This document shows positions 5,080 through 46,327 of a stretch of DNA of 62,367 nucleotides, piece by piece. Numbering within the stretch: position 1 is the stretch's first letter; every line of letters begins with the position of its first letter. Position numbers and translations under genes: made by a program. This DNA comes from Fimbriimonadaceae bacterium (GTDB lineage Bacteria > Armatimonadota > UBA10988). The notes under the pieces are model-generated. The model did not search any database. It saw only the letters and a list, made by a program, of their open reading frames with translations, and had not been told where the DNA came from. The stretch covers positions 1 through 62,367 of the forward strand of contig JADZEX010000025.1 of the NCBI GenBank assembly GCA_020850355.1. The letters are read 5' to 3'.

Positions 5080-5194
5080 CGCCAGTCTCCATGACGCCGC
5101 TGGGAGCTTCGCGCTGCCTGGTCGGCTCCCTGCCGGAACCGCCCCCGCCGCGGGGCCGTCCCAGACCCGGGGGCAGCCGGTGAGGAGCGTGGTG

Positions 5195-7363
5195 ATGCTG
5201 CGTTGCGGTCTGCTGATCTGCCTGCTCGGTGTGCCCATCGCGCCAGCCTGGGCCGCACCAGCCGCGCCCTATGCCTTCCGCAACGCGACGATCGTCGCCG
5301 GTGGGTTCATGCCTGGCATCGTCTTCCACCCGACCATCGCCGGGCTGGCCTACATTCGGTCTGACATGGGCGGCGCCTATCGGCTGGATCCGGCCACCCG
5401 CCGCTGGCAGCCGCTGCTCGACTTCACCAAGGACTATGTCGAGACCGGCGTCGAGAGCATCGCCTTGGACGCCGCCCACCCGGACCGGGTCTACCTGGCC
5501 TGTGGCACCACCGTGGCGAGTTGGGCGCCCAACGGGTTCCTGCTCCGCAGTGACAACCGTGGCGAGACCTGGGAACGCCTGCCGCTGCCCTTCAAGTGCG
5601 GCGGCAACAGCGATGGCCGGTCGATTGGGGAACGGCTGCTGGTCGACCCCTTGGCCCCCGAGCAGCTCTGGCTGGGTAGCCGTCAGAAGGGCCTTTGGCG
5701 CAGCCGCGACCGGGGCACGACCTGGCAGCCGGTGACCTCGTTCCCGGTCGCCGAGACCAGCGCCGGACGGTGGCCCGGCAGCGGTGTCTGCTTCGTGCTG
5801 GCGGATCCCCGCGGCAGCGCGCCTGGCGGACCCACGCAGACGCTCTACGCCGGTGTCGCCACGCAGCCGCTGAGTCTCTACCGCAGTCGCGACAACGGTG
5901 GCACCTGGACTGCGCTGCCCGGCCAACCCACCGACTGGCTGCCGCACCATGGGGTGCTGGCCAGCAACGGTTGGTTGTACCTGACCTACTGCGACACGCC
6001 GGGACCGAACGGCGTGACCGACAGCCAGGTCTGGCGGCTCGACACCGCGACCGACGCCTGGACCAACATCACGCCGGCGGCCGTGGCCGGCCAGAAGCTC
6101 GGCTACGGCTACGCCGGGCTGGCCGTCGACCGGCGGCAGCCGGCGACGGTGATGGTCGGCACGACCTGTCGCTGGGCCGCCGGCGACGACCAGTGGCGCA
6201 GCATCGATGGCGGGGCTACCTGGCGCCAGGTCGGGCCGACGGCACTGCGCGACGTCAGTCGCAGCCCGTACCTGCGCTGGGGCAAGCCCGAGACGCAACG
6301 CGTCGGGGCCGGCAACTGGCAGGGCAGCATCGTGATCGACCCCTTCAACTCCAACCGCGTGCTCTACGTCACCGGCGCCACCGTCTGGGGTTGCGACGAC
6401 ATCACCAACGTCGACCGCGGGTTGCCGACGCACTGGGTGGTGCGCGGTGAGGGGATCGAGCAGACCGCGGTGCTCGATCTGATCAGCCCGCCCGAGGGGC
6501 CGCCGTTGATCAGCGGTTTGGGCGACATCGGCGGCTTCGTGCACGACGACCTGACCGTCTCGCCGCAGGCCGGCATGATGCGCCCCTACATGACCAACCG
6601 CGCGCTGGACTACGCTGGCGCCGCGCCGCGCCACGTCGTGCGGGTCGGCGATGGCATCGCCGTGCCGGGCTGTCTGTCCACCGACAGCGGCCAGACCTGG
6701 CAAGTCTTCGCGACGGCCCCGGTGGCCGGCGCCAAGAACGGCAGCGTCGCGCTGAGCGCCGATGGACGGGCGGTGCTCTGGTCACCGGGTGGCCAGCCGC
6801 CGTTCCGCAGCACCGACGGCGGGACCACCTGGGCGCGCTGCCAGGGTCTCGAGACTGCCGCCGTCGTGGTGGCCGACCGGGTCGATCCGCTGTTGCTCTA
6901 CGCCCTGCCGGTCAACCGCGACGACTCGCCCGCCCGGCTGCACCGCAGCACCGACGGGGGCGTCACCTTCCAGCCGGCCGCCGCCGGCCTGCGCGGGCGG
7001 CGCTTGCGGGCGGTGCCGGGTCTGACGCGGCAGCTCTGGCTGGCCGGCCCGACCGGCCTCTGGCGTTCAACCGACGCCGGGGAGACCTTCACGGCGCTCG
7101 CCGGCTGCAGTTCGGCGATGTCGGTCGGCTTCGGCCAGGCCGCGCCGGGCCAGACCCATCCGGCCGTCTTCACCGCCGCCACCCGCAGCGGGGTCACCGC
7201 GCTGTACCGCTCCGACGACCTGGGCGGCACCTGGCTCCGGCTGAACGACGAGCAGCACCTGTGGGGCGGGCTCTACGGCTGCCTGACCGGCGACCCGCGG
7301 GTCTACGGCCGGTTCTACCTGGGCACCAACGGCCGCGGCATCATCATCGGCGAGCCCCGCTGA
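5195..7363 (+). CDS. GH74 family xyloglucanase-like secreted hydrolase
   Basis: The 722-residue protein starts at the ATG at 5195, with GAGGAG seven bases upstream; the frame is open further upstream without purpose. Residues 1-21 form a signal peptide ending AWAAP. The sequence then follows the GH74 pattern: GGFMPGIVFHPT, the SDMGGAYRLDP motif with the presumed first catalytic Asp (D57), and LGDIGGFVHDD with the presumed second catalytic Asp (D444). Several Asp-box/BNR motifs (SxDxGxTW type, such as SRDRGTTW, STDSGQTW, STDGGTTW) mark the two seven-bladed propellers of this family. GH74 enzymes cut beta-1,4-glucan backbones of xyloglucan. The length is close to that of a GH74 catalytic module with no carbohydrate-binding domain. 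Substrate specificity cannot be read from sequence alone. Confidence 0.88.
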   Translation: MLRCGLLICLLGVPIAPAWAAPAAPYAFRNATIVAGGFMPGIVFHPTIAGLAYIRSDMGGAYRLDPATRRWQPLLDFTKDYVETGVESIALDAAHPDRVYLACGTTVASWAPNGFLLRSDNRGETWERLPLPFKCGGNSDGRSIGERLLVDPLAPEQLWLGSRQKGLWRSRDRGTTWQPVTSFPVAETSAGRWPGSGVCFVLADPRGSAPGGPTQTLYAGVATQPLSLYRSRDNGGTWTALPGQPTDWLPHHGVLASNGWLYLTYCDTPGPNGVTDSQVWRLDTATDAWTNITPAAVAGQKLGYGYAGLAVDRRQPATVMVGTTCRWAAGDDQWRSIDGGATWRQVGPTALRDVSRSPYLRWGKPETQRVGAGNWQGSIVIDPFNSNRVLYVTGATVWGCDDITNVDRGLPTHWVVRGEGIEQTAVLDLISPPEGPPLISGLGDIGGFVHDDLTVSPQAGMMRPYMTNRALDYAGAAPRHVVRVGDGIAVPGCLSTDSGQTWQVFATAPVAGAKNGSVALSADGRAVLWSPGGQPPFRSTDGGTTWARCQGLETAAVVVADRVDPLLLYALPVNRDDSPARLHRSTDGGVTFQPAAAGLRGRRLRAVPGLTRQLWLAGPTGLWRSTDAGETFTALAGCSSAMSVGFGQAAPGQTHPAVFTAATRSGVTALYRSDDLGGTWLRLNDEQHLWGGLYGCLTGDPRVYGRFYLGTNGRGIIIGEPR

Positions 7364-7456
7364 TCCAATCCGTCCCGCGTGGCCTCCGGCCCGTCCGGAC
7401 TCGTGGCACGTATGTTGACACTCGTGTTACGATCCTGGTCGGTCGGGAGAGTTGGC

Positions 7457-8188
7457 ATGGTGCGGCGGCGGGGCTTCACGTTGATCGAGCTGCTGGTGGT
7501 GATCGCGATCCTCGCGATTCTGGCAGCCATTCTGTTTCCGGTCTTTTCCAAGGCGCGCGAAAAGGCGCGCCAGGCGAGCTGTAGCGCGAACTTGCGGCAG
7601 TGGTCAGCGGCCTACCTGATGTACGCCCAGGACCACGACGAGGTCTTCCCGCCGGCCTACTGGGACTACTCCGGCAACGTCACGATGACCTGGCTCGGAT
7701 TCTGCGAGCCGTATGTCAAGAACGCCCAGTTGAAGCACTGCCCGAGCTTCCAGCCGAAGGCGGCGACGACCTACTACAATGTCGGGTATGGGGTCAACTA
7801 CCGCTGGTTCGGGTTCTCGGGCGACGCCACCGACAGTCGCAGTTGGAGCAAGTACTACGTGACATCGCTGGCCGTCGTGCAGGCCCCGGCCGAGACCATC
7901 CTGCTGGCCGATGCCGACTACTTCGTCTTCATCCCGATGCTGCAGCTCTCGACCAATGCCTGGCTGCGGGACAACCTGAAGGTCGACCCGCGCCACAACG
8001 GCGGCGCCAACCTGGCGTTTGCCGACGGGCACGTCAAGTGGCTGAAGCGCGAGGCATTCACCTGGGCCAGTCCCAGCAACCGCTACCTGTACACCCCCGA
8101 AGACGACCGCAGCAGCGACGACATCCAGGTCGATTTCGTCAACCCGTACCGCAGCTACTACTGCAACGGCGGACTGATCGACGGCTAG
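7457..8188 (+). CDS. Prepilin-type (DUF1559-like) H-x9-DG protein, copy 1
   Basis: The 243-residue protein starts at the ATG at 7457, preceded by GGGAG with an eight-base spacer. MVRRRG followed by [20 protein letters not shown] is a type IV prepilin/pseudopilin signal: cleavage after Gly, then Phe methylation and a hydrophobic helix with Glu at position +5. [15 protein letters not shown] is the Armatimonadota-type continuation. The globular part ends with [12 protein letters not shown], the H-x9-DG motif of these proteins. They are processed by prepilin peptidase and exported by type II secretion or type IV pilus machinery, none of which is encoded here. It lies 93 bp after the GH74 gene, and its stop codon overlaps the ribosome binding site of the next gene, so it is cotranscribed with the hydrolase-cupin gene. 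Confidence 0.9.
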
Positions 8189-8198
8189 GAGCGGGATG

Positions 8199-9764
8199 AT
8201 GCTGACCAGCCTGATGGCCTGCGTCTGCCTGGCCGTGCCCTTCGTGGAGCAGCCGGCCGAGGTGCTCAGCGAGGGCGTGCCGCTGCACGGCTGTTGGCTG
8301 TGGCCCAATGCTGCCAGCCGGGTGCCGCTGGTGCTGCTGGCCGGTGGCACCATGTCGCAGACTCGCGACGGCGGGCTGGAGAATGGCACGCCCGCGGGGC
8401 AGCAGCGCGACGCCCTGGGCCGCTTGGCGCGGCAACTGGCGGCGGCTGGTTACGGCAGTTTGCGGTGGGACAAACGCGGCCACGGCGCGACCCCGGCCGG
8501 CACGCGCCCGGCCGACAACGAGAGCGAGGCCGCTGACCTGCAGGCGCTGCTGGCGGCTGCCAGGGCGCACCCGCGGGTCACCGCGGTGGTGCTCGCCGGC
8601 GAGAGCGCCGGTGGCTACTTCGCCTGCCTGGCCGCGCGGGCCGGGTCGCTGGCCGACGGCTACGCGCTGCTGGGCTGCCTGGCGTCCAGTAGCCCCGAGC
8701 TGTTTGCCTACAACTACGGCCGGCTGCGTGATTGGGCTGCCGAGGCACCTGGCAACCGGGCCTGGTGCGACGAGCACTGCCTGGAGGCGCTGGCGGTGGG
8801 GCAGCACTACGAGGCGATGTTCGCGGCGGCGGCCCGGGGCGAGGAGACCTTCACCATCGAGTTCGCCGGCCGCCGCTGGCCCCGCGCCCTGGCCCGGCTG
8901 CGCACGGAGCTGGACCACCCGCCCGGGGAGCTGTTCCGATACCTCACTCGCCCGACCCTGGTGTTGCAGGGCGAGCGCGACATGAACGTCCCGCCGGGCG
9001 ACGCCGCCCGCATCGAGGAAGTGCTGCGCGCGGCGGGCCAGCGCGACGTGACGCGGGTCAACGTGCCGTTGGCCGACCACAGCTTCCAGTACGCCGCGGA
9101 TGAGGCCGACCAACGGTGGCGCGACCGTTACGACTTCGGGAGCTTCTACCGGCTCTACCACCCAGGCCTCTACTCGTCGCTGGTGACCTGGCTGCAGGCC
9201 CGCTGGCCTTCCCCGGTGGCGGCGACGGCGTGGGATGAACCGCGGCCGGGGATTGCCGCGTGGGAGCAGGTGCAGGTGATCGAGGACGTCGCCGACGCCC
9301 GTCGCAGCCCTGGCGTCGAGACGCTCGAGGGCCGTATCGGGCCACATCTCAAGGGTGCCGCCAGCCAGGCCCACTACATCGAGATGCCGGCTGGCCTGTA
9401 CCTGCACGAGCATCCGCACGCCACCGAGAGCCTGGTCTTCACGGTCCGCGGCTCCTGGGTGCTGTGCCACCGCGGCCGGCGGCAGTTGATGCGTCCCGGC
9501 AGCCTGTTCTGGTTCGCGCCAGACGCGCCGACTGGCTGGGAAGTGCCGTTCGACGAAACAGCCTATGTGCTGATCTTCAAGGGCACCCGCAGCGACTGGT
9601 CTGACGCCCGCTTCTACGAGTACCTGCGCGGGCTGGCGGACCGTTGCCGCGAGGAGCAGGCGGGCGGCGAGGCCTTCCGCTTCGATGTCCTGCCGGCAGA
9701 CCATCCGGCGCGCCTCTACGCGAGGCAGGTGAACCCGGCCTGGGAGCAGCGTCTGCCCCGCTGA
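8199..9764 (+). CDS. Alpha/beta hydrolase fused to a C-terminal cupin
   Basis: There are two candidate ATGs, 8196 and 8199; AGGAG at 8187-8191 fits 8199 better. The protein (521 residues) begins with a weak hydrophobic stretch that may be a short signal. Residues about 40-340 are an alpha/beta hydrolase: SLRWDKRGHGAT, nucleophile motif GESAGG (Ser136), an acid loop (VLQGERDMNVPPGD) and a His in LADHSFQYA. Residues about 375-470 are a cupin, shown by LHEHPHATESLVF, with metal-type His and Glu residues, and MRPGSLFWFAPDAPTGWE. Hydrolases of this shape cleave esters or peptides, and cupins bind sugars, metals or small acids. The fused pair may hydrolyse a substrate and sense or modify the product, but that is inference. 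A gap of about 50 bp separates it from the next gene. Confidence 0.8.
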   Translation: MLTSLMACVCLAVPFVEQPAEVLSEGVPLHGCWLWPNAASRVPLVLLAGGTMSQTRDGGLENGTPAGQQRDALGRLARQLAAAGYGSLRWDKRGHGATPAGTRPADNESEAADLQALLAAARAHPRVTAVVLAGESAGGYFACLAARAGSLADGYALLGCLASSSPELFAYNYGRLRDWAAEAPGNRAWCDEHCLEALAVGQHYEAMFAAAARGEETFTIEFAGRRWPRALARLRTELDHPPGELFRYLTRPTLVLQGERDMNVPPGDAARIEEVLRAAGQRDVTRVNVPLADHSFQYAADEADQRWRDRYDFGSFYRLYHPGLYSSLVTWLQARWPSPVAATAWDEPRPGIAAWEQVQVIEDVADARRSPGVETLEGRIGPHLKGAASQAHYIEMPAGLYLHEHPHATESLVFTVRGSWVLCHRGRRQLMRPGSLFWFAPDAPTGWEVPFDETAYVLIFKGTRSDWSDARFYEYLRGLADRCREEQAGGEAFRFDVLPADHPARLYARQVNPAWEQRLPR

Positions 9765-9815
9765 CGCCGCTTGACGTCGCGCCGGGCGCTCACTACCATC
9801 CGGCGGGAGACCGCC

Positions 9816-10685
9816 GTGTCCGCCTCTGGCCGCCGCGCGCTGCTGACGACCATCGCCATCGACGGCCAGGACCGCCGCACGGTCTACCAGACGGCCGAGC
9901 AGCTCGAGGCGCCGAACTGGTCGCCCGACGGCCGCTGGCTGGTCTACAACGCCGCCGGCGCCCTCTGGCGGATCCCGCCGGACGGGAGCGCTGCGCCGCA
10001 ACGGATCGACACCGGCGGCGTCGACCGCCTCAACAACGATCACGTGATCGCCGCCGATGGCGCCACGATCTACTTCAGCGCGGCCGGCCACCTCTACGCG
10101 GTGCCCTTCGCCGGCGGATCGCCGCGACGGATCTCCAACGACCAGGACCCGGCGCGCCGCTTTCAGTACTACCTCCACGGCGTCTCGCCTGACGGCACGA
10201 CCCTGGCCTACGTCGGCGTCGAACAGCGCGACGGCGCCACGCGGGCCGACCTCTGGACCATCCCCACCGCCGGCGGACCCGACACGCGGTTGACCGACTA
10301 CCCGGCCCCCGACGACGGTCCGGAGTACAGCCCCGATGGGGAGTGGATCTACTTCAACAGCGAGCGCGCCGCGACGGTGGCCGGTCACGCGCAGTGCTTC
10401 CGGATGCGGCCCGATGGCCGCGGCGTGGAGCAGTTGACGCACGACGAGCGCGTCAACTGGTTCCCCCACATCGCACCCGATGGCGCCTGGGTGGTCTACC
10501 TCAGCTTCCCGCCCGGCACCCTCGGCCATCCGGCGGACCGCGACGTGATCCTGCGCCGGATGCGGCCTGACGGCTCGGAGCAGCGCGACCTGCTGGCGTT
10601 CTGGGGCGGCCAGGGGACGATCAACGTCAATAGCTGGTCGCCGTGCAGCCAGCGGCTGGCGTTGGTGGTCTACGAGCGGGAGTGA
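9816..10685 (+). CDS. TolB-like WD40 beta-propeller protein
   Basis: The GTG at 9816, with GGGAG six bases upstream, is preferred over an upstream TTG at 9771, giving 289 residues. The protein consists of PD40-type blades: SPDGRWLVYNAAGALWRIPP, DGATIYFSAAGHLYAVPF, SPDGTTLAYV, SPDGEWIYFNSERA and APDGAWVVYLSF. No signal peptide or catalytic site is visible. The family includes TolB-like periplasmic and cytoplasmic propellers that bind proteins or oligosaccharides; cytoplasmic relatives such as oligogalacturonate lyase-like propellers also have the SPDG(R/E)W blades, so a polysaccharide link is possible. It shares a strand with the hydrolase-cupin gene and is probably in the same operon. Confidence 0.75.
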   Translation: MSASGRRALLTTIAIDGQDRRTVYQTAEQLEAPNWSPDGRWLVYNAAGALWRIPPDGSAAPQRIDTGGVDRLNNDHVIAADGATIYFSAAGHLYAVPFAGGSPRRISNDQDPARRFQYYLHGVSPDGTTLAYVGVEQRDGATRADLWTIPTAGGPDTRLTDYPAPDDGPEYSPDGEWIYFNSERAATVAGHAQCFRMRPDGRGVEQLTHDERVNWFPHIAPDGAWVVYLSFPPGTLGHPADRDVILRRMRPDGSEQRDLLAFWGGQGTINVNSWSPCSQRLALVVYERE

Positions 10686-10741
10686 CGGCCAGCCGGCCCG
10701 TGTGGAGTTGGTTCTGCCGGCCAGCGCGTCGCCCCTCCGCG

Positions 10742-11194
10742 TTAGATGCGCGGTTCGATGTTCTCCACCGCCACCGGCACCTGACCGGCCCGGATCTGCT
10801 CCGCCAGGCACTGCTCGTAGATGTTGAAGCCGTCCCAGATCGACTTGGCGACACGCTCCATGAGCCAACTCGCGGTGGCGCCGGGGGCGATGGCGATCTG
10901 GACGAAACGGTCGGGCGCGATCCGGTGCTCGTCCGAGCCGGTCGTGACGAAGCTGGTGCAGACCAGATTGGTCGGCTCGGCGATGTAGCGGTCGCCGGCG
11001 GTCTCGCCTTCGTCGATGCGGGCGATCCACAGGGCGTTGGTGAAGGGGTTGGTGAGGATCTCACCCCATGACAGGTAGAGCGGCCGGGCGGTCCGATTGG
11101 TCGCCTCAACTCGCCACTTGTTGGCGTTCGCGGTCCACATCAGCCGGTGCGGCGTGCGGACCTTGTGGACCACGATTAGGATGCGCTGCGACAT
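10742..11194 (-). CDS. Hypothetical protein, 150 residues
   Basis: No family was recognised. The ATG at 11194 follows GGGAGG with a five-base spacer, which supports translation. The protein has no signal peptide or membrane segment and has a mixed alpha/beta look (YLSWGEILTNPFTNALWIAR; FVQIAIAPGATASWLMERV), with two cysteines and several tryptophans. The middle reads like a beta-sandwich with the phrase APGATASW, often seen where a domain describes immunoglobulin-like or EF-Ts-like folds, but this is too weak to name. It runs convergently with the propeller gene and lies 45 bp downstream of the DUF1080 gene on the same strand, so it may be the last gene of that transcript. Confidence 0.65.
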   Translation of the reverse strand: MSQRILIVVHKVRTPHRLMWTANANKWRVEATNRTARPLYLSWGEILTNPFTNALWIARIDEGETAGDRYIAEPTNLVCTSFVTTGSDEHRIAPDRFVQIAIAPGATASWLMERVAKSIWDGFNIYEQCLAEQIRAGQVPVAVENIEPRI

Positions 11195-11239
11195 GGCCGC
11201 CTCCCAGGGCAGCAGGTTCGCCCGGCGCTCCGGGCCAGG

Positions 11240-12034
11240 CTACGGCAGCCGCTTCAGCCGCAGGTCCTTGAACTCCACCCACATCGGTGGGCCGGCGTGG
11301 ATTTGGAGGGCGAAGATGCCGTCCAGCAGGCGCCCCTGCGGGTCGTTGTCGGTCAGGTCGACGGTCTGGATCCCATTGATCCACTGTTGCAGGTGGGTGC
11401 CTTCGCAGCGGATGATGTACTCGTTCCAAGTCGCCTCGGCTTCGACCTTGCGGACCTGATAGCAGTTCTGGGCGGCTTTCAGGTCGCCCAGGATGCCGAC
11501 GACCTGCTTCTTGCCGTGCTCGTCCATCACCACTTGCTCGCCCGGCATGCCGATCCGCGCGCGGCCGCCCTCGTGGTAGAGCATCCCCGGCCGGTTGACC
11601 TCGTTGGCGACCTCCATCTGGTAGCCGCGCACGACCCACTCGTTCGGTGGCTTCGGATCGAGCTGCTTCGAGCGGTATTGCACGCCGCTGTTGCCGTGGT
11701 GGATCCGGACCTGCAGCCGCAGCTCGAAGTTGGCGGCTGCGGCGCCCTGGTCGTCGCCGGTCCAGATCAGGAAGGTGTTGCCCTTGGTCGGGTTCGCAGC
11801 GGTGGTCTCCCCCCGCAGGACGCCGTCCTTGACGCTCCACAGGCGCGGGTCGCCTTTCCAACCGGTCAGGTCACGGCCGTTGAACATCGCGACCATGCCA
11901 GCCGGCTCGGGCGGTGCCGGCACCGCCGGCACCACCGGCGGGGCGGCGGGAGCCGGCGCTGGCGGGTCGGCGGCCAGCAGGGCGGACAGCAGCACCGTCG
12001 TTGCGAGCAGCGGCCAACGCCAGGAGCGGGTCAT
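11240..12034 (-). CDS. Secreted DUF1080 (3-keto-disaccharide hydrolase-like) protein
   Basis: The start is placed at the second Met (12034), because GGAGG abuts the first ATG (12043) but lies nine bases before the second. The 264-residue protein has a signal peptide (about residues 1-22), a Pro/Ala-rich linker, then a DUF1080 concanavalin-like jelly roll: MFNGRDLTGWKGDPRLWSV, GNSGVQYRSKQ, WNEYIIRCEGTHLQQWING, and a last strand GPPMWVEFKDLRLKRLP. These features match the family well. DUF1080 proteins are abundant in Planctomycetes and Armatimonadota, and some act on 3-keto-glycosides. It lies just downstream of a beta-helix gene on the same strand, consistent with a carbohydrate-use cluster. 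Confidence 0.9.
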   Translation of the reverse strand: MTRSWRWPLLATTVLLSALLAADPPAPAPAAPPVVPAVPAPPEPAGMVAMFNGRDLTGWKGDPRLWSVKDGVLRGETTAANPTKGNTFLIWTGDDQGAAAANFELRLQVRIHHGNSGVQYRSKQLDPKPPNEWVVRGYQMEVANEVNRPGMLYHEGGRARIGMPGEQVVMDEHGKKQVVGILGDLKAAQNCYQVRKVEAEATWNEYIIRCEGTHLQQWINGIQTVDLTDNDPQGRLLDGIFALQIHAGPPMWVEFKDLRLKRLP

Positions 12035-12090
12035 CGAGTTCATCCTCCGAGTCTCTTTCGGTTTTCGACGACGGGCACCTGCCGCCAGGT

Positions 12091-14706
12091 TCAGCGGACC
12101 GCGAGGTCGACGTCATCGAGGTAGCAGGCGGTGGCGAGGTCGGCCAGGCTGACGAAGCCCAGCCACTCCAGCCGCCGGAAGGCCGGGTCGCAGGGCAGGT
12201 CGGTGGCCTGCACCGGCGGCCGCCCTGGTGCCGTGGCCTGCAGCGACCATTGGCCGCGGGCGCCGTCGCCGAGGGCGGCGGTGATCTCGAAAGCCACCCA
12301 GGTGTCGTCCGGGAAGCTGCCCAACAGCCGCGCGCCGGCCCGCAACTCACCGTTGGCTTCCCACCGCAGCGAGGGTCCCACGGCGTAGGGGTAACCGCCG
12401 CTGCGCCACTCGGTCCAGACGATGGCGCCTGGCGCCCGCCGCGCGGCGAAACGCAGCACCGCGGTGCCTCTGCGCAGGCCGGGCTGCCAGAAGCAGTGCG
12501 GCTGCCACGACGGCTGCAGCCCGGCCGCGTCCTGCAGCTTGAGGCACTGCTGGCCGCTGGCGGCCAACTCGGCGGTGACGCTGATGTCCCCGCCGCGGCC
12601 CTCGCCGCGGGAGACCACCAGTTGGTCGGGCGCGGCGCCGGGCGGGTAGCCCTCGAAGTCGTCGCGGTGCGGGCCGCTGCGACGATGGACCGGTGACGGT
12701 AGGGGCTGCTCGGGGTGCGCCACCGCGCGCGGGCCAGCGACCCAGGCGGGATCACCGTACAACCCGCAGGCGGTGTAGTCCCAGCGCTCGAAGCCGAGCC
12801 TGGTGACCGCCGGCGAGGTCGCCGCGAGGCGGTAGTCGTTGGCCGCCAGGTCGGCCACCAGGGGATCGGCCAGCAGCGACTGGCGGTCGATCCCAAGCTG
12901 CTGCCAGGCTGGCAGGTCGTCATCCATGAACAGCAGCTCCTCGCCGCCCGGCCGCCAGTAGAGGTTGCGGTCCCAGGTCGAGAGCGTGTCGGGTTTGGCG
13001 TCGAAGTAGAACAGGTCGCCCTGCGTCGAGAGGCAGATGTTGCGCTCGAAGACGTTCGGCACGGCGATGCTGGCGGGCGACCGCCAGATCAGGTGGTCGG
13101 CGCCCTTTGCGAAGAGGTTGTTGCGGATCACGTTCTGGTGCGCCCCGTTGTGCAGCATCAGGCCGCCGCTGGTGGTTTGGTAGACCAGGTTCTGCTCGAC
13201 CAGGTAGCCGTGCGTCTCGGCGTCGAGGTAGATGCCCCAGGCGATCCGCGGGGAGTCCCAGGCGTAAATGCCGTGGATCACGTTCCGCCGCAGCACCGAC
13301 CCGTCGCTGCGGCCGAGGGTGTAGATGCCGCCGGCGTCGCTGAGCCGACCCTTGACCAGGTGGTGAATGTGGTTGCCCTCGACCAGGTTGCGGCGCACGG
13401 CAGTGTCGGTGCGGCCCCAGTTCCAGCCCAGCGAGATGCCCGTGTACCAGCCGTCGTGCAGCTCGTTGCGGCGGATCACGCAGTCTGCCGCCTGGCCTAC
13501 CAGAATCCCACAGGCACCGTTGTAGACCTCGCCCCAGTGGTGAATCCAGCAGTTGTCGACCGTCACGCCGCTGGCCAGGTCGAGGGGCTGCGCGGGCAGG
13601 CTCATCTCGCCGATCCGCACCCCGCTGCCGCCGAGGTCGTCGAACTGGCAGCGCTCGACCCGGTTGCCGCGGCAGCCGCGGCGGAACCAGAGCGCATGGC
13701 GCCCGAGCCGGGTGAAGCGACAGTCGACGAAGCCGCCCTCGACGGCGCCGGTGGCGGTCAGCGCCGCGCCGAGCGACCAGACCGCCTGGCCGTCGCTGTG
13801 GCCGGTTGGCTCCAGCTCCCAGGCGGCGTCGGCAAAAGCGAGGCCGGCGAAGGTGACGTCGGTCACCGGCAGCCCGGCCGCCGGCTCACCAACGAGCTGG
13901 ACCAGGTCGCTGAGTTGGGGCAACGTCGCGACGGCCTCGGCCGGCTGCTCTCCGGGGCGCGGCAGGTAGGTCAGCAGGCCGTCCGGCGCGAGGTACCACT
14001 CGCCGGGGGCGTCGAGCCACTCGGGCCGGTTCTCGAGGTGGTAGCGCTGGCGGTTGCCGAAGTAGCCCATTGGCCAGTGGGTCGGTCCGCCCAGCAGCAG
14101 GCTGCGGCTGGCTGGTTCGAGCGCCTGCAGCGGCAGCAGCGAGGTCTCCCAGGAGTGGTAGACCACGACCATCGCTCCGTCGGGCGAGGCGATCCGCGGG
14201 AAGTCGTCCGGCGCGGCGACGAAGGCGGTGCGGGGCCGTTCGAGATCGAATCCGGCGATCCGCAGGGCCCCGTCGTTGGGGGTCCTCGCCCGCACCGCGC
14301 GGCGGCCGTTGACGAAGAGCTGGGTGGCCCGCGTGCCGGCCGGCCACTGCTGCGTCCAGCGGCCGTCGCGGACCTGCCAGCCGCGCCGCTGCGGCCCGCC
14401 TGCCAGCTCCACCAGGGCGCCCGGCGCCGCTTCCAGGCGCAGGTGCGAGTCGGCCGGCAGGAAGCGCAGCGGAGCCGCCAGTTCGTACCGTCCGGCGGCG
14501 AACTGGATGGTCCGCCGGCGGTCCTGGCCCAACCGGCGCGCCGCGGCGAGGGCGGCCGCCGGGCTGGCCAGCGGGCCATCGGTGCCAGCCGCATTGGCCG
14601 TCGGCAGGCGACCCGACCAGGCGTCGCGGCCGTGCGGCGCAACATAGACATCGGGCGCCGCCAGGGCGGCCGCAGCGGTCAGCAGGAAAGCCAGCGCACG
14701 GACCAT
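12091..14706 (-). CDS. Large secreted right-handed beta-helix protein with C-terminal sandwich domain
   Basis: The start at 14706 has GGAG seven bases upstream, and the N-terminus is a signal peptide (MVRALAFLLTAAAALAAPDV). The 871-residue protein opens with the diagnostic phrase VAPHGRDAWSGRLP, followed by GPLASPAAALAAARRL. A beta-helix region with many right-handed turns follows (residues about 290-590: IRRNELHDGWYTGISLGWNW, VEGNHIHHL, VIRNNLFAKG), then a C-terminal domain of about 200 residues resembling a laminin-G/concanavalin sandwich (DDFEGYPPGAAPDQ ... ACYLDDVDLAVR). Such proteins bind or cleave acidic or plant polysaccharides; no catalytic triad can be assigned by eye. It sits upstream of the DUF1080 gene, likely in one operon. 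Confidence 0.85.
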   Translation of the reverse strand: MVRALAFLLTAAAALAAPDVYVAPHGRDAWSGRLPTANAAGTDGPLASPAAALAAARRLGQDRRRTIQFAAGRYELAAPLRFLPADSHLRLEAAPGALVELAGGPQRRGWQVRDGRWTQQWPAGTRATQLFVNGRRAVRARTPNDGALRIAGFDLERPRTAFVAAPDDFPRIASPDGAMVVVYHSWETSLLPLQALEPASRSLLLGGPTHWPMGYFGNRQRYHLENRPEWLDAPGEWYLAPDGLLTYLPRPGEQPAEAVATLPQLSDLVQLVGEPAAGLPVTDVTFAGLAFADAAWELEPTGHSDGQAVWSLGAALTATGAVEGGFVDCRFTRLGRHALWFRRGCRGNRVERCQFDDLGGSGVRIGEMSLPAQPLDLASGVTVDNCWIHHWGEVYNGACGILVGQAADCVIRRNELHDGWYTGISLGWNWGRTDTAVRRNLVEGNHIHHLVKGRLSDAGGIYTLGRSDGSVLRRNVIHGIYAWDSPRIAWGIYLDAETHGYLVEQNLVYQTTSGGLMLHNGAHQNVIRNNLFAKGADHLIWRSPASIAVPNVFERNICLSTQGDLFYFDAKPDTLSTWDRNLYWRPGGEELLFMDDDLPAWQQLGIDRQSLLADPLVADLAANDYRLAATSPAVTRLGFERWDYTACGLYGDPAWVAGPRAVAHPEQPLPSPVHRRSGPHRDDFEGYPPGAAPDQLVVSRGEGRGGDISVTAELAASGQQCLKLQDAAGLQPSWQPHCFWQPGLRRGTAVLRFAARRAPGAIVWTEWRSGGYPYAVGPSLRWEANGELRAGARLLGSFPDDTWVAFEITAALGDGARGQWSLQATAPGRPPVQATDLPCDPAFRRLEWLGFVSLADLATACYLDDVDLAVR

Positions 14707-40468: not shown

Positions 40469-42097
40469 GTGGGACCGACTTACCGCCGTTGGCTGGTCTC
40501 GGGAGCCGTCGCCGCAGGGCTGCTGCTGGGCTGCGCCGCGCCGGTGGCGGCCCAGGAGATCGGTGCGCCGCGTTTGGACCCCGAGTTGCCGCTCTGTCTG
40601 CAACTGCCGCACCTCGACCCGCGGGTGGTGGAGGTGCTGTGGGGCGTCAATCTGGTGGCGCCCGCCAGCGATCTGCCGGCGCCGGTCACCGTGCGCCCGC
40701 CCGTCGTGGCCGGGCCGGGTGGGGTGCGGTCCGACCAGCCCGTCGCCACCGTGCCCGGGGCGGTGCGGTTGCCGCTGGGCGCGAGCGGCAGCCAGACCGG
40801 GGCCGTGGCAGCCAGCACCGCCGGGGACCGCGGTCCGGCGGGCGTGGCGGTCGGGCCAGTCCCCACCTCCGGGCCGGCCGGGGTCGCCGTCGGGGCGTTC
40901 GACACGGGCGCTCCCGCGGCGGTCACCGTTGGCGGCACGAGCAGTTCCCTGGCGTCGCTGCCCGTGCCCGCGACGACCCAGTTGCTGGTGCTGCGGCTGG
41001 TCGCCGGGGACCGTGACCCGGCGCTCCTGGCCCGGCTGCCGCAGCTTCCGACCGCGGACCTGATCGGCCTGCTGCCAGGCCTCTCGCGCTGGCGAGCGGA
41101 CGAGCGCGCTGCGGCCGACCTGCTGGCCCTGGAGCTGCTCCGGCGTCCGGAGACCCCGTCCGGCCCGGCCGACCTGCCGGCGGCCGTCGGCCTGGCCATC
41201 GCCGACGCCCTCGCTCGGCAGGGCGACGAGCGGTGCGTGGGGTGGTACGAGGGGCTGCTTCTGCGGTACAGAACCAGGGTGCCGGAGCCAGTGACAGCCC
41301 TGCTAGGGCTAGCCGCGTTCTACCGGCTCCGTGGCGAGCATCTTCTAGCGGCAACGACCTTCCTGCGACATGATCAGTTCTCAACGAACGCAGACGAGAT
41401 GGCGTGCTGCTACGTAGAGGCTGCTCGCTGCTTCGGCGCTGCCGGTAACGCGCCAGGGCGCCACGCCTGCCTGGACCGCGCGGCGTCGGCTTCGTACGGC
41501 TGGGCCGCAGGAGTGGCTCGAATCGACCAAGCCCGGACACTGCTTGGTGCCGGTCGGCTGGCCGAGGCAATCGAGGTGCTGCGTCTGCCTGCTAGTGGCC
41601 GCTGGTCTGAGCGTCTTGACCTGGGTCGGAGATCGCTGCTAGGGATCTGCTTCGCTCTAGTCGGGCAGGCCGCTGCCGCGAGAGAGATGCTATCCGAGGC
41701 GCTGGCAGCGCGCAGCCAGAGCGACATGCCAGTCGACTGGGAAGGCATTGATAGCCTCATGGCGGAGGCGCTGCAGGTCTTGCTGCAACTCGATGCATGG
41801 GAGGCCGAACCTCTTCGAGTGATGCCACGGGAGATCACCCTACACGGTCGGTCGCCGCGCCGGCATGTTGTTCGAGCGTTGGTTACCACTATGCGTCCTC
41901 CGAAGCTGGTGATCCATCTCATCGGCCTGCGCGGACGTGCAACCACGGCAGTGACCGGAGTATCACCAGCCGGTTGGCAGAGCTCAGTAGCAGTGAGTAT
42001 CGAGGGCGTGGTAGAGGGCGCAGAGCAAATGGCGGTACGTATCGACAATGCCGAGAACCGGGGAAAGCCGGCCTTGGTGCGGGTGTACATTCAATAG
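40469..42097 (+). CDS. Predicted lipoprotein with mixed base composition
   Basis: The GTG start at 40469 has GGAG upstream (542 residues). VAAGLLLGCAAP is a signal peptide with a lipobox (LLGC), so the protein is probably a lipoprotein. An Ala/Gly/Val/Thr-rich low-complexity segment with a GPAGVAVG repeat lies near residues 130-150. The middle is helical (TPR-like); the C-terminus ends with a beta-sandwich-type domain (HVVRALVTTMRPPKLVIHLI, VSPAGWQSSVAVSIEGVVEG). The first two thirds of the frame have high third-position GC, but from about 41240 the codon use shifts to a lower-GC style, without a break in the frame. Function unknown. Confidence 0.75.
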   Translation: MGPTYRRWLVSGAVAAGLLLGCAAPVAAQEIGAPRLDPELPLCLQLPHLDPRVVEVLWGVNLVAPASDLPAPVTVRPPVVAGPGGVRSDQPVATVPGAVRLPLGASGSQTGAVAASTAGDRGPAGVAVGPVPTSGPAGVAVGAFDTGAPAAVTVGGTSSSLASLPVPATTQLLVLRLVAGDRDPALLARLPQLPTADLIGLLPGLSRWRADERAAADLLALELLRRPETPSGPADLPAAVGLAIADALARQGDERCVGWYEGLLLRYRTRVPEPVTALLGLAAFYRLRGEHLLAATTFLRHDQFSTNADEMACCYVEAARCFGAAGNAPGRHACLDRAASASYGWAAGVARIDQARTLLGAGRLAEAIEVLRLPASGRWSERLDLGRRSLLGICFALVGQAAAAREMLSEALAARSQSDMPVDWEGIDSLMAEALQVLLQLDAWEAEPLRVMPREITLHGRSPRRHVVRALVTTMRPPKLVIHLIGLRGRATTAVTGVSPAGWQSSVAVSIEGVVEGAEQMAVRIDNAENRGKPALVRVYIQ

Positions 42098-42111: not shown

Positions 42112-42573
42112 ATGCAGAAGAGAGCATCGCTGCAGTTGGCCGCGCAAGCCATCGTCATAGTCGTTGCGCTTGCAGGCCCGTCGGCTTCGACCTGCGCTGC
42201 AGTCACAGTCAGCGACGAGGAGGCCGCGCTCGTAAGCGGACTCGCGAGCACAAAGAACTGCAAGTGCCAATCGCATCATGCAGGCTGTGCAAGCGTGACT
42301 TGCGCACCCGAGCCAGGAACCCCGATACGTTGGTGCTACAGCCTGACGGGCTACGGCTACTATACTTGCATGGACGGCTGGTCCTCGGGTTGGTACTGCA
42401 AGGATGTTCCGGCGCAATCGAGCTGTTCGAGTGGCGACACCAAGAGCCTATGCGCCTGCTACAAGGACAGCTACCCAGCCAACCCCGAAGGTGGTCCTTG
42501 CGACACCGACTGCCATGGCAACCCTGGTAGTAGGACCTGCGTTTCCAGCGTGACAGGCTGCGCCAGCGGTTGA
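42112..42573 (+). CDS. Small exported cysteine-rich protein
   Basis: The ATG at 42112 is preceded by AGGAG with a six-base spacer. The 153-residue product has a signal peptide (AQAIVIVVALAGPSASTCA), then VSDEEAALVSGLAS, and a mature region with about 14 cysteines, rich in Ser, Gly, Thr, Tyr and Trp (NCKCQSHHAGCASVTCAPEP, YYTCMDGWSSGWYCKD, SLCACYKDSYPANPEGGPCD). Cys pairs such as CKC and CAC suggest disulfides, metal binding or post-translational modification. SDEEAALVSG resembles the leader pattern of some exported peptide precursors; with the C39-like gene downstream this invites a processing hypothesis, which is an inference. No family was recognised. Confidence 0.75.
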   Translation: MQKRASLQLAAQAIVIVVALAGPSASTCAAVTVSDEEAALVSGLASTKNCKCQSHHAGCASVTCAPEPGTPIRWCYSLTGYGYYTCMDGWSSGWYCKDVPAQSSCSSGDTKSLCACYKDSYPANPEGGPCDTDCHGNPGSRTCVSSVTGCASG

Positions 42574-42649
42574 TGTTGGAAGGGTGGCTGGATCGGCTGC
42601 GGCGGCACCGCCGACCGCGAATGCAAGCGATCTTCACGGAGTGCTACAC

Positions 42650-43657
42650 ATGGACAACGCAAAGGAACTGTTAGACAAGCGTCGCCTTTGCAGCTTAATG
42701 CGGCGGTTATGGTTGCTGCTAGGCTCCCTGTGCTGCAGCGCAGCACAGGGAGCACCGGTCATCCGACCCGAGGAACGGTTAGCGATTGTCCAGGCCGCAG
42801 TGCGCCTTCGACTCGATCGTCAGCGTGCGTTCTATGCTTGGTTTGCCGAGGAGCGCTATTACCTAGAGCCCGCACGTAGGGCGCGGCCAGAGCCCATACA
42901 GGATCATCTGTGGCACATCTTCTTCACCACCGGACCGCGAGGCTGGCGCGAAGACAGTGTGCGATGGAGCACTGCTGGTGATCGTGAACATATGATTCGT
43001 AAGTCGTTTGATGGCAGCCAGTACAGAGAGTACGATAGCCAGGCTGGCAATGTGGTCAGGTGGGTGCAGACAAGTGCTCCGGAGGCTTCGACATTCCTGG
43101 ATTACGCCCGATGGAAGGAGCGCCGTCTGCCGTCCGAGGGACTGCTGGCGGTTGGCGATGGCGTTGTTGTCGCCGAGATAGTCGGCGATTGGAGTTGTCT
43201 TCGTGTGGACGCGCCACGCATCGACGGCGGCGTGTCATCTTGGTGGGTCTGCCCTGCACTGGACTACCTTGTAGTAAAGGCCTGGCACCGCTGGCCTGTC
43301 GGCGACGGGTCGGCGAGACGCGGCTCCGGTTACAGAGTTATGGACTCCGTACAGCTACACGGTGATCGCTGGGTTCCTATGCAGCAGAGGATCCTCACTG
43401 GGGTCCTTGGTGAGGACGACCGATTCGAACTGTGGGAGGCACAGCGCTTCACTACTATCGAGTGGCACGAAAACGACGACGCTCACGACATACTGCTTGC
43501 ATGGCTGGGTTGGACCACTGGCATGGAGTACAACGACGGGTCGAACGAGAGGCACCTACTCGGGGGAGATCCATGGCTCTTTCTAGAGCGGCTGAGGAAC
43601 GGTGTAGACGCTGGCCTGAGGGCGTTGCAGCCGCAGACGGATGGCGCGCAACCGTGA
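42650..43657 (+). CDS. LolA/outer-membrane lipoprotein carrier-like hypothetical protein
   Basis: The ATG at 42650 has GGAG eight bases upstream (335 residues); a second ATG at 42698 would put the signal peptide at the very N-terminus. A hydrophobic segment with a Cys pair (LWLLLGSLCCSAAQGA) is the signal. The mature part looks like an antiparallel beta structure with repeating charged strands (DSVRWSTAGDREHMIRKSFD, VVAEIVGDWSCLRVDAPRID, YRVMDSVQLHGDRWVPMQQR, DRFELWEAQRFTTIEWHEND), the kind of half-barrel found in LolA-like, lipid-binding periplasmic proteins. No catalytic motif. It is joined to the next gene by a GTGA overlap. Confidence 0.65.
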   Translation: MDNAKELLDKRRLCSLMRRLWLLLGSLCCSAAQGAPVIRPEERLAIVQAAVRLRLDRQRAFYAWFAEERYYLEPARRARPEPIQDHLWHIFFTTGPRGWREDSVRWSTAGDREHMIRKSFDGSQYREYDSQAGNVVRWVQTSAPEASTFLDYARWKERRLPSEGLLAVGDGVVVAEIVGDWSCLRVDAPRIDGGVSSWWVCPALDYLVVKAWHRWPVGDGSARRGSGYRVMDSVQLHGDRWVPMQQRILTGVLGEDDRFELWEAQRFTTIEWHENDDAHDILLAWLGWTTGMEYNDGSNERHLLGGDPWLFLERLRNGVDAGLRALQPQTDGAQP

Positions 43658-45057
43658 ACGCCTGGTTGGCGGCAGCACTAGGCGGTCGGCGAACACGGAT
43701 GGTGCTTTTGGTCGCTGCGTGTTGGCTATGGCCAATGCGCTGGGCCGCTGCTGGTGAGGGGGCCAGCGAAGGCCGAATGGGGTGCGCCGCCCGTTGTGTG
43801 TGGGGTGTGGCTGTACTGTGCGGGGTCCCCACGCAACGGTGCGAGGAGGTGGGTTGGGGCAGCTCTGCAACAACCTTGTTGAGTGTCAAAGAACTGGCAG
43901 TCGGGCTTGGCCTCGAAATGGAGCTTGAGCGGATCACTGTCTCGGAGGCCACCGCCAGTCAACTTCCTGTTATCGTGCATCTGCTGCACGATGGCGGGAA
44001 TGGTCACTTCGCCATCCTGACAGGCTTCGGGTCTGGCTATGTGCAGCTTTGGGATGGTCCCGGTGTGTCTGTCCAGGTGATGGCTACCGGCAGCTTCTCC
44101 ACTCTCTTCTCGGGCTTTGTCGCACGTCCGCGAGTTGCTGCGGCGCATGGGCCCAGCGTGGTGCTGGAGCCGGCTGTAGTTGATGTGGGTGTAGTGGCTG
44201 CCGGCCAGGATGTTGACTGCACGGTAAGGGTGCGCAATGTCGGTCGGGCGAATGCTCGCGTCTCCGTTCTGCGGACCAGTTGCGGGTGTACGATGGCATC
44301 CCTGAGCGCTCAGTCGATTGTCGGAGGTGGGGAGGCCGTGCTGAAGGTTCGGGTCAGCCCTCCGGATGGAGGCGAGTTTTCACAGATAGTTGAGCTGGCC
44401 ACCGACGCGGCCGGCAAGAGGTTATGTTTCGTTACGGTGCGCGGAGAGGCGCGGGTGAGACAGGTGGTCGCATTGCCTGGACGCTTGCGGCTGAGTGGCG
44501 TCCAGGGCGCGGTGCTAGGAGCAATGCTGGTTGTCGTCGTGCCTGCTGGCTCGGTAATTGTCGACGCGGAGGCGACATGCTCGGTGGTTGAAGCCCTTGT
44601 GGTAGGGCGGTCAGAGCACCGGGGTATCTCTCGAGTCTTTCTGAATGTCACCGCTGCCTCCGATCAGCTGGCATCTGGAAGATGCGAACTGCTATTGCGC
44701 TTCCGAGATGGGCCTATCGGCCCGCTCAAGGTTCCGGTGGACTACGAGGTGCGCTCGGCATGGCGGCCGCAGCCTAGTGGTATTGTTCTTCCTGAGGTGC
44801 AGGTGGGCAGCAGGAAAGAGGTCGTCGTGGTGTTGGAGCGGAACGATGGTCAGCAGAGGGGCTTGAGTGCTGTTCGCTCGACTGTCCGCGACACGGCCGT
44901 GAGTGTCATAGGCGATGGCAGGGGGTCTGCAATTCGGTTGAGCGTTGTTATCAGCCCATCGCGCGCAGGGCTGTATAGCGGTGTGATTGAGGTGATCGGT
45001 GCGGCCGGCCTGGTTGAGGTTTCCATCCCTGTTACAGCTCTGGCGGTCGATGGATAG
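43654..45057 (+). CDS. Exported C39-like peptidase domain plus DUF1573 protein
   Basis: A GTG at 43654 overlaps the upstream stop (GTGA), giving 467 residues. LVAACWLWPMRWAAAG is the signal segment. Residues about 43-145 are like the C39-type (bacteriocin-processing-peptidase-like) domain: GCAARCVWGVAVLCGVPTQR with a candidate Cys44, HFAILTGFGSG with His and QLWDGPG with Asp, the expected Cys-His-Asp order. Then DUF1573 (VVLEPAVVDVGVVAAGQDVD, SVLRTSCGCTMAS) and further Ig-like repeats run to the end. An exported protein with a C39-like domain could cleave a secreted precursor; a small Cys-rich precursor-like gene lies upstream. Activity is unproven. Its end overlaps the cytochrome gene by 8 bp. 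Confidence 0.75.
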   Translation: MNAWLAAALGGRRTRMVLLVAACWLWPMRWAAAGEGASEGRMGCAARCVWGVAVLCGVPTQRCEEVGWGSSATTLLSVKELAVGLGLEMELERITVSEATASQLPVIVHLLHDGGNGHFAILTGFGSGYVQLWDGPGVSVQVMATGSFSTLFSGFVARPRVAAAHGPSVVLEPAVVDVGVVAAGQDVDCTVRVRNVGRANARVSVLRTSCGCTMASLSAQSIVGGGEAVLKVRVSPPDGGEFSQIVELATDAAGKRLCFVTVRGEARVRQVVALPGRLRLSGVQGAVLGAMLVVVVPAGSVIVDAEATCSVVEALVVGRSEHRGISRVFLNVTAASDQLASGRCELLLRFRDGPIGPLKVPVDYEVRSAWRPQPSGIVLPEVQVGSRKEVVVVLERNDGQQRGLSAVRSTVRDTAVSVIGDGRGSAIRLSVVISPSRAGLYSGVIEVIGAAGLVEVSIPVTALAVDG

Positions 45058-46327
45058 ATCCTTGCCATACACCGTAAGTAACGCATGGAAGACGACGCAG
45101 CAGGTCGTCGCGGCTGTTCTCGTAGCGGTGTGTGCCGGAAGTGGCCAGGTAGGTGATGAGCCTTCGGTGAGGACCCTTGCCATCGCCCGCACGGACGGCT
45201 ATCTGGAGCCGTGTGGTTGCGGTGGGCAGCAGGCTGGGGGGCTGGCGCGGCGGGCCCAGTTGCTGCGCGACTGGAGGGCCGAGGCAGCGGACCTGGTGGC
45301 GCTCGACCTGGGCAACTTCGGGTCGCAACCGGCCGCGGTGCCGGTGGTGGCGCGGGCGCTGGGGGCGATGGGCGTGCTGGCCTGCGGCACCGCGGCGGAG
45401 GACCTGGCCGACTACCCCACCTTCACGACGGCCTGCCGCGAGGCTGGTCTCGCCCACACCAGCCTGGTGCCGCCGCTAGAATCGGGCGCGGCGCCACCGG
45501 CCGCCATCGTGGTGAGCGGGCCGGGCGGCCCGGTCTGCGGCCTGCTTTCGCTGTGCTTCGGATCGCTGGCCAACGCCGCGCTGACGGCACGGGCGGTCGA
45601 CGAGCTGGAGCGCCTGCACGCTGCACAGCCAGCGCTGCCGGTGCTGCTGATCAGTCACCGCAACGTGGCCACCACGGAGCGCCTGGTCGCGGCGATCCCC
45701 GGGGCGCTGCGGCCGGTGGCGGTGCTGGCGGCGAGTGACAGCAACGAGCCGGCCCCAGCTTGGGAGCGCGACGGGCTGTGGTGGGTGCCTGTCGCCCAGC
45801 GCGGCCGGGCGCTGGTTCGCCTCCGGTTGGTCCGTGCCGCGGCCGGCTGGGAGGTCCGAGCCACCGCCGTGTTGGTGGCCGACGGGCCGCGCGATGTGGC
45901 CGTGCAGGCGATGGTGGACGACTACCACCGGTCGACCGCGCCACCGCCGGTGGCCAGCACCCCGGCCCCCTACCCGCCGGTGACCGCCTGCGTGCCGTGT
46001 CACAGCGGGGCCGTCAAGGCCTGGCGGCAGCAGCCGCACGCCCATGCCGTCGAGACGTTGGAGCAGGCCGGCCGGCTGCAGGCGGGTTGTCTACGTTGTC
46101 ATGACGAGCGCTTCCGCCGCGACGGCCAACGGTCGCCAGCCGGTGACCGCGGCATCGAGTGCGCCACCTGCCACGACGCTCTCGCCGACCACCTGGCCAA
46201 CACCCAGCGGCGACCGTCCAGTGGCGCGCGCGCCGCCTGCGAAGGTTGCCACACCGCTGAGAACAGTCCCCACTGGGACCACCCGACCTACCTCACCAAG
46301 ATCCTGGCCGCCTGCCGCGCCCGCTGA
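45050..46327 (+). CDS. Exported multiheme cytochrome c with CGC-motif N-terminal domain
   Basis: The ATG at 45050 lies inside the end of the previous gene (425 residues). It has a signal segment (TQQVVAAVLVAVCAGSGQ). The N-terminal domain has DGYLEPCGCGGQQAGGLARR, the CGC...GGLARR pattern of the UshA-like calcineurin phosphatase relatives linked to cytochromes in Planctomycetes. The C-terminal quarter has four CxxCH haem-binding motifs (CVPCH, CLRCH, CATCH, CEGCH), a cytochrome c554-like arrangement. It would carry electrons in the periplasm, or on the outer face of a membrane. The first ~180 bp are compositionally like the genes upstream, while the rest has the high GC of the genome. Partner reductase unknown. 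Confidence 0.82.
   Translation: MDRSLPYTVSNAWKTTQQVVAAVLVAVCAGSGQVGDEPSVRTLAIARTDGYLEPCGCGGQQAGGLARRAQLLRDWRAEAADLVALDLGNFGSQPAAVPVVARALGAMGVLACGTAAEDLADYPTFTTACREAGLAHTSLVPPLESGAAPPAAIVVSGPGGPVCGLLSLCFGSLANAALTARAVDELERLHAAQPALPVLLISHRNVATTERLVAAIPGALRPVAVLAASDSNEPAPAWERDGLWWVPVAQRGRALVRLRLVRAAAGWEVRATAVLVADGPRDVAVQAMVDDYHRSTAPPPVASTPAPYPPVTACVPCHSGAVKAWRQQPHAHAVETLEQAGRLQAGCLRCHDERFRRDGQRSPAGDRGIECATCHDALADHLANTQRRPSSGARAACEGCHTAENSPHWDHPTYLTKILAACRAR

Follow-up and report, generated by a model that had tools for sequence, protein, structure and literature searches.

C39 peptidases that cut at double-glycine leaders are textbook enzymes, but their action is coupled to ABC exporters and the peptidase works in the cytosol. 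The substrates of PCAT1 share the consensus L(-12)xxxE(-8)L(-7)xxxxG(-2)G(-1), in which position -4 is a specificity site (PMC6959990). C39 leaders end in GG, GA or GS and carry hydrophobic residues at -4, -7 and -12, and the review giving this rule also sees a use for stand-alone C39 domains of different specificity (PMC10885120). The locus described here, from a Fimbriimonadaceae bacterium of the Armatimonadota, is likely to be a Sec-exported double-glycine maturation module, in which a precursor exported through Sec would have its leader cut by a C39 enzyme that is itself exported.

Gene order and its recurrence

Our window is the whole stretch of DNA that was analysed, 62,367 nucleotides in length. 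Reading of the plus strand from 42112 to 46327 confirmed the four co-directional genes of the initial annotation, which encode Cys-rich, LolA-like, C39-DUF1573 and CGC/tetraheme proteins, all with signal-like N-termini as judged by eye (Table 1). Three of the genes had been described as joined by overlaps, and two of the three joints are indeed of this kind: the LolA-like and C39-DUF1573 genes overlap in GTGA, and the C39-DUF1573 and tetraheme genes by 8 bases. The Cys-rich gene stands apart, with its stop codon ending at 42573 and LolA-like starts possible from 42584. A TPR-like gene, absent from the initial annotation, is part of the likely operon; its end lies 14 bases upstream of the Cys-rich start, and a homologue (L043:2487-4427; 5e-41) occupies the same position in another module. 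The Cys-rich, LolA-like and C39 genes (42112-45057) may be recent horizontal arrivals, since their G+C content is 60–62% compared with 70% in the window.

Table 1. Positions of the genes and of the leader segment in the window.
Feature	Position	Strand	Remarks
TPR-like exported protein	40469-42097	+	First gene, likely operon
Cys-rich precursor	42112-42573	+	153 aa: Sec signal, degenerate double-glycine leader (predicted), 109-residue Cys-rich part
Leader segment VTVSDEEAALVSGL, positions -14 to -1	42202-42243	+	Gap-free alignment with 32 other leaders
LolA/LolB-fold exported protein (predicted fold)	42698-43657	+	319 aa; ATG at 42698 is the most likely start
Exported C39 peptidase domain and DUF1573 Ig-like domains	43654-45057	+	GTG start, 467 aa
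UshA-like CGC domain and four CxxCH haem motifs, accessory	45050-46327	+	ATG start

A second copy of the module is present on another contig of the source genome (L003), where the order is LolA-like, Cys-rich, LolA-like, C39-DUF1573, tetraheme. C39-DUF1573 relatives from elsewhere in the phylum have flanks that repeat the order TPR, Cys-rich, LolA-like, C39-DUF1573, and at intact loci the C39 gene lies within about 300 bases after the LolA-like gene. A chance neighbourhood is ruled out by the same order in L003 and in many other genomes. The co-occurrence expected for all four families across the Armatimonadota holds for three of them: the Cys-rich, LolA-like and C39-DUF1573 genes form a core that recurs in about 17 of 291 genomes, with the tetraheme gene joining it only in a minority of cases.

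The leader itself leads back to the same genes. A model of the signal and leader (A5) gave 34 matches in 17 of the 291 Armatimonadota genomes, and every match with readable flanks adjoins LolA-like or C39 genes, although only a handful of the leader loci are truly independent because C39 had served to find most of the loci used for training. Matches from outside the training set also adjoin LolA-like genes (three on G083:C5, and those on G288:C130, G072:C257 and G094:C121). Up to E 1e-3 no leader-bearing relative was found away from the module in the 291 genomes, the match on G015:C107 being at a contig end. The initial annotation had named relatives of the Cys-rich protein that are never near such genes as the outcome that would count against it, and the reverse was seen wherever flanks could be read. 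A contig scan with the pattern AHLW[GRN][ND]HF, which is specific to one subgroup, returned Armatimonadota only, and a set of 397 relatives added no other strong match.

Several modules have other genes of interest beside them. At L003, two radical SAM/SPASM genes (603-2998; AhbC/AhbD-like by eye) point away from the paralogous module and may be ordinary haem biosynthesis genes. Thioredoxin-like and DsbD/CcdA-like membrane genes lie beside modules at L037 (962-2110), L044 (8879-10357) and L042 (5517-6106), the one at L044 being joined in frame to an ECF sigma factor. At L053 (G124:C23:12000-28000), positions 3351-13566 hold radical SAM genes and four Tat-signal WD40 proteins with a common Cys-rich tail, CTCNQVHYWHPN, together with a C39-like/DUF1573 protein that lacks the catalytic Cys and His; this looks like another modified-protein cluster.

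The leader of the Cys-rich precursors

The SDEEAALVSG segment noted earlier in the Cys-rich protein is present, with 14 cysteines behind it. Across about 39 Cys-rich homologues the common feature, besides the cysteines, is L(S/T)xEEMxxVxGG directly after the Sec signal peptide, and a hydrophobic signal segment precedes every leader (signal peptides judged by eye). The canonical register is kept in 32 of 35 precursors, with L-12 in 26/33, E/D-8 in 20/33, M/L-7 in 25/33, V/I-4 in 25/33 and G-2 in 28/33, as well as S/T at -11 and G/A/S/T at -1 in nearly all of the proteins. The leader is gap-free while the rest of these proteins is highly variable, and its register agrees both with the PCAT1-substrate consensus (PMC6959990) and with the GG/GA/GS rule (PMC10885120). 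By comparison, SDEEAALVSG in the window protein probably represents a degenerate leader of the double-glycine type that follows a Sec signal.

Leaders were scored with each genome omitted from its own matrix, using 409 proteins of the same loci as controls. At least 20 precursors outscore all 409 controls, as does the paralogue leader, EALSDEEAGKVRGS. The window leader, VTVSDEEAALVSGL, has V-12, A-7, V-4, G-2 and L-1, and ends in GL, not GG; 28 of the 409 controls score at least as high. A full-length model trained without the source genome still finds the window precursor (3.9e-4) and its paralogue (1.8e-5), and on this basis we assign the window protein to the family, as a member with a worn leader.

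The cargo behind the leader spans 70–150 residues with 7–16 Cys across the family. Mature parts alone gave weak detection, and the cysteine column counts from MAFFT, which are inflated by the aligner, are not taken as proof of a common fold. Comparison of the Cys-rich protein with Pfam, NCBIfam and the PDB gave no family match apart from weak GG-leader models; the TIGR04149 GG precursors match three family members weakly (8e-4). A literature search found no paper naming NVEALA. Our guess is that the mature protein is a secreted antagonistic or surface protein.

The C39-DUF1573 protein and its partners

Both domains previously proposed for the third protein of the cluster are over their Pfam cut-offs, Peptidase_C39 (PF03412) at 5.6e-5 and DUF1573 (PF07610) at 1.7e-11 (44.4 bits against a cut-off of 26.1), the latter cut-off being passed by all 14 homologues. 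A predicted model of a 450-residue construct, of moderate quality because its mean pLDDT is 73, has ComA (5xe8; Z 13.8, rmsd 2.8, 121 aligned) and PCAT1 (8vp5; Z 13.7) as the best matches to residues 22–144, so the region on whose C39 fold the initial annotation depended is predicted to have that fold. A C39 profile compared with PDB sequences likewise finds PCAT1 (1.4e-16), ComA (1.7e-16) and LahT (6e-16). The catalytic Cys44 and His118 (467-aa numbering) are invariant in 14/14 homologues, the window protein included. Asp134 is present in the window protein, at a position occupied by D/E/N/S/Q/G in the family, and the oxyanion-hole Gln at -6 is Ser in the window protein, being absent from 12/14 homologues and retained in 2/14. 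At the equivalents of the PCAT1 groove residues A55 and I59 the family has Leu/Met throughout and mostly Arg/Lys/Gln, respectively. The source genome (assembly 95% complete) contains exactly two C39 domains, both of the exported C39-DUF1573 kind, and no C39-ABC exporter was found in it. In a plasmid collection the matches were limited to C39 exporters and one DUF1573 protein, with no C39-DUF1573 fusion at 80% coverage, and a literature search found no paper joining DUF1573 with C39.

The missing Gln and variable Asp would suit a C39 domain that binds the leader without cutting it, as the C39-like domain of HlyB does, the module then serving to retain or sort Cys-rich proteins beyond the inner membrane. 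The C39 profile also reaches HlyB, and the Leu at -1 of the window leader is a poor cleavage residue. We nevertheless regard binding alone as unlikely, since it needs neither Cys nor His, and every leader-bearing locus retains the two residues, which disappear jointly at other loci. Tabulation of all C39-derived domains showed no case in which one of them occurred without the other. About 25 loci combine a leader-bearing Cys-rich gene with an intact Cys and His. At L101 and L103, leaderless Cys-rich genes adjoin C39 remnants without either residue, and at L107 a leaderless gene is found where the C39 domain itself is gone; at L053, L094 and L106 the C39 domain is also dead and there is no leader gene nearby. 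The resulting table of leader against Cys and His (25/0/0/3) has a chance value of 3e-4 without correction for kinship, and the family tree is too poorly supported for such a correction or for a count of independent losses.

Two further C39 proteins were noted. At L094 (3318-6305) a 995-residue exported protein has a C39-like domain that retains Cys and His, and the C39 remnant of the downstream DUF1573 protein has Ser at both places. At L111 (6037-9099) the C39 domain of a 1020-residue protein follows an apparent cyclic-nucleotide-binding domain, and this is probably a peptidase exporter of the ordinary kind.

The predicted model of the LolA-like protein (mean pLDDT 63) has the half-barrel LolA/LolB fold and matches DUF1329 (4z48; Z 12.1), LolA3 (9tp6; Z 11.8), 3bk5 (Z 11.8) and LolB (9tpm; Z 11.3). 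LolA and C39 parts are fused in one protein at L104, L108 (two) and L109, and the two functions are therefore tied together. Where a locus has two or three Cys-rich genes (L036, L037, L151 and L156), each is followed by its own LolA-like gene and there is still only one C39 gene. This pairing with single precursors suggests a dedicated role, and the LolA-fold protein probably holds or carries its cognate precursor.

The last gene matches its earlier description, with CGC at residue 55 and CxxCH motifs at 314, 347, 371 and 397. Its product matches Pfam Cytochrome_C554 at 2.4e-6 and NF041198 at 4.9e-21, the latter with 74.9 bits and thus under the curated cut-off of 275. Its overlap with the C39 gene, and its presence in L003, L038, L043, L101, L103 and L155, would fit an ordinary envelope redox operon, as would the CxxC/DsbD-like genes seen close to some of the modules. 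On that reading the tetraheme protein would have the Cys-rich protein as its electron-transfer or metal-binding partner, and the resemblance to a leader would be incidental. Such an operon is improbable, given that cytochrome genes are absent from most modules in other families and that the leader has been conserved while the remainder of the Cys-rich protein has not. With only these six modules and the window carrying the gene among those read, the tetraheme protein is an optional partner present at a minority of loci.

Proposed maturation and relation to known systems

In the maturation pathway that we favour, Sec would export the Cys-rich precursor unfolded, and signal peptidase would leave an N-terminal stub of about 12–15 residues, L(S/T)xEEMxxVxGG. 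The stub would be bound by the exported C39 domain in the manner of PCAT/ComA peptidases with their leaders, and a cut behind the small -1 residue would release the Cys-rich domain; we infer this step from sequence, fold and co-variation. The DUF1573 Ig-like repeats would probably serve as the part that keeps the peptidase in place, the LolA-fold protein, one per precursor, as the probable cognate holder or carrier, and the tetraheme protein as an optional redox accessory. Cutting probably takes place outside the inner membrane, not during export, because the adjoining protease is exported and comes without any transporter. The initial suggestion that the C39-like domain may process the Cys-rich product thus gains support from the leader, the predicted C39 fold and their co-variation. 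A C39 transpeptidase, whose acyl-enzyme, formed at the GG site, would attach a second molecule to the leader part or to a partner, as in the anchoring of a protein on the surface, would suit a papain-like fold outside the cell with attached Ig-like repeats but is very improbable, since no second conserved acceptor motif is seen and a GG cut would leave the leader, not the cargo, on the enzyme.

If the proposed maturation by cutting is true, an exported C39 acting on Sec-delivered precursors separates cutting from transport and provides a family of stand-alone proteases that may be of practical use. It would also name a secreted disulfide-rich protein family of the Armatimonadota, a phylum with almost no genetics. 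Because leader and catalytic residues co-vary, the model is directly testable in vitro. More tentatively, and with somewhat less than even confidence, we suggest a separate maturation and secretion pathway, in which double-glycine processing has moved from ABC exporters to a place behind Sec and each disulfide-rich cargo has its own dedicated LolA-fold chaperone, the cargo possibly being an unrecognised secreted antagonistic or surface class of the Armatimonadota.

The C39 domains of PCAT/AMS exporters (ComA, PCAT1 and LahT) share with the window protein the predicted fold and the catalytic Cys and His, and across the family the neighbouring precursors have a leader of the same double-glycine type and register, to which the window precursor conforms in part. 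The window C39 differs in being exported, with a signal-like N-terminus, in its fusion to DUF1573 without an ABC transporter, in lacking the catalytic Gln and in its proposed action on a precursor that leaves through Sec. Class II bacteriocin/microcin and TIGR04149 precursors have the same short leader (L-12/E-8/L-7/V-4/G-2/G-1), the same variable Cys-rich cargo and an adjoining leader-specific processing gene, whereas here the leader stands behind a Sec signal and not at the very N-terminus, there is no exporter, and a cargo of the size given above has a LolA-fold partner. That partner has the same predicted fold as the LolA/LolB/RseB superfamily (Z up to 12) but is paired one-to-one with Cys-rich precursors and has a sequence identity of 7–9%. 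Finally, the tetraheme protein shares the CxC motif and multihaem C-terminus of the UshA-like PCGU (seleno)protein with C-terminal haem motifs (NF041198), while having Cys instead of Sec and scoring under the family cut-off.
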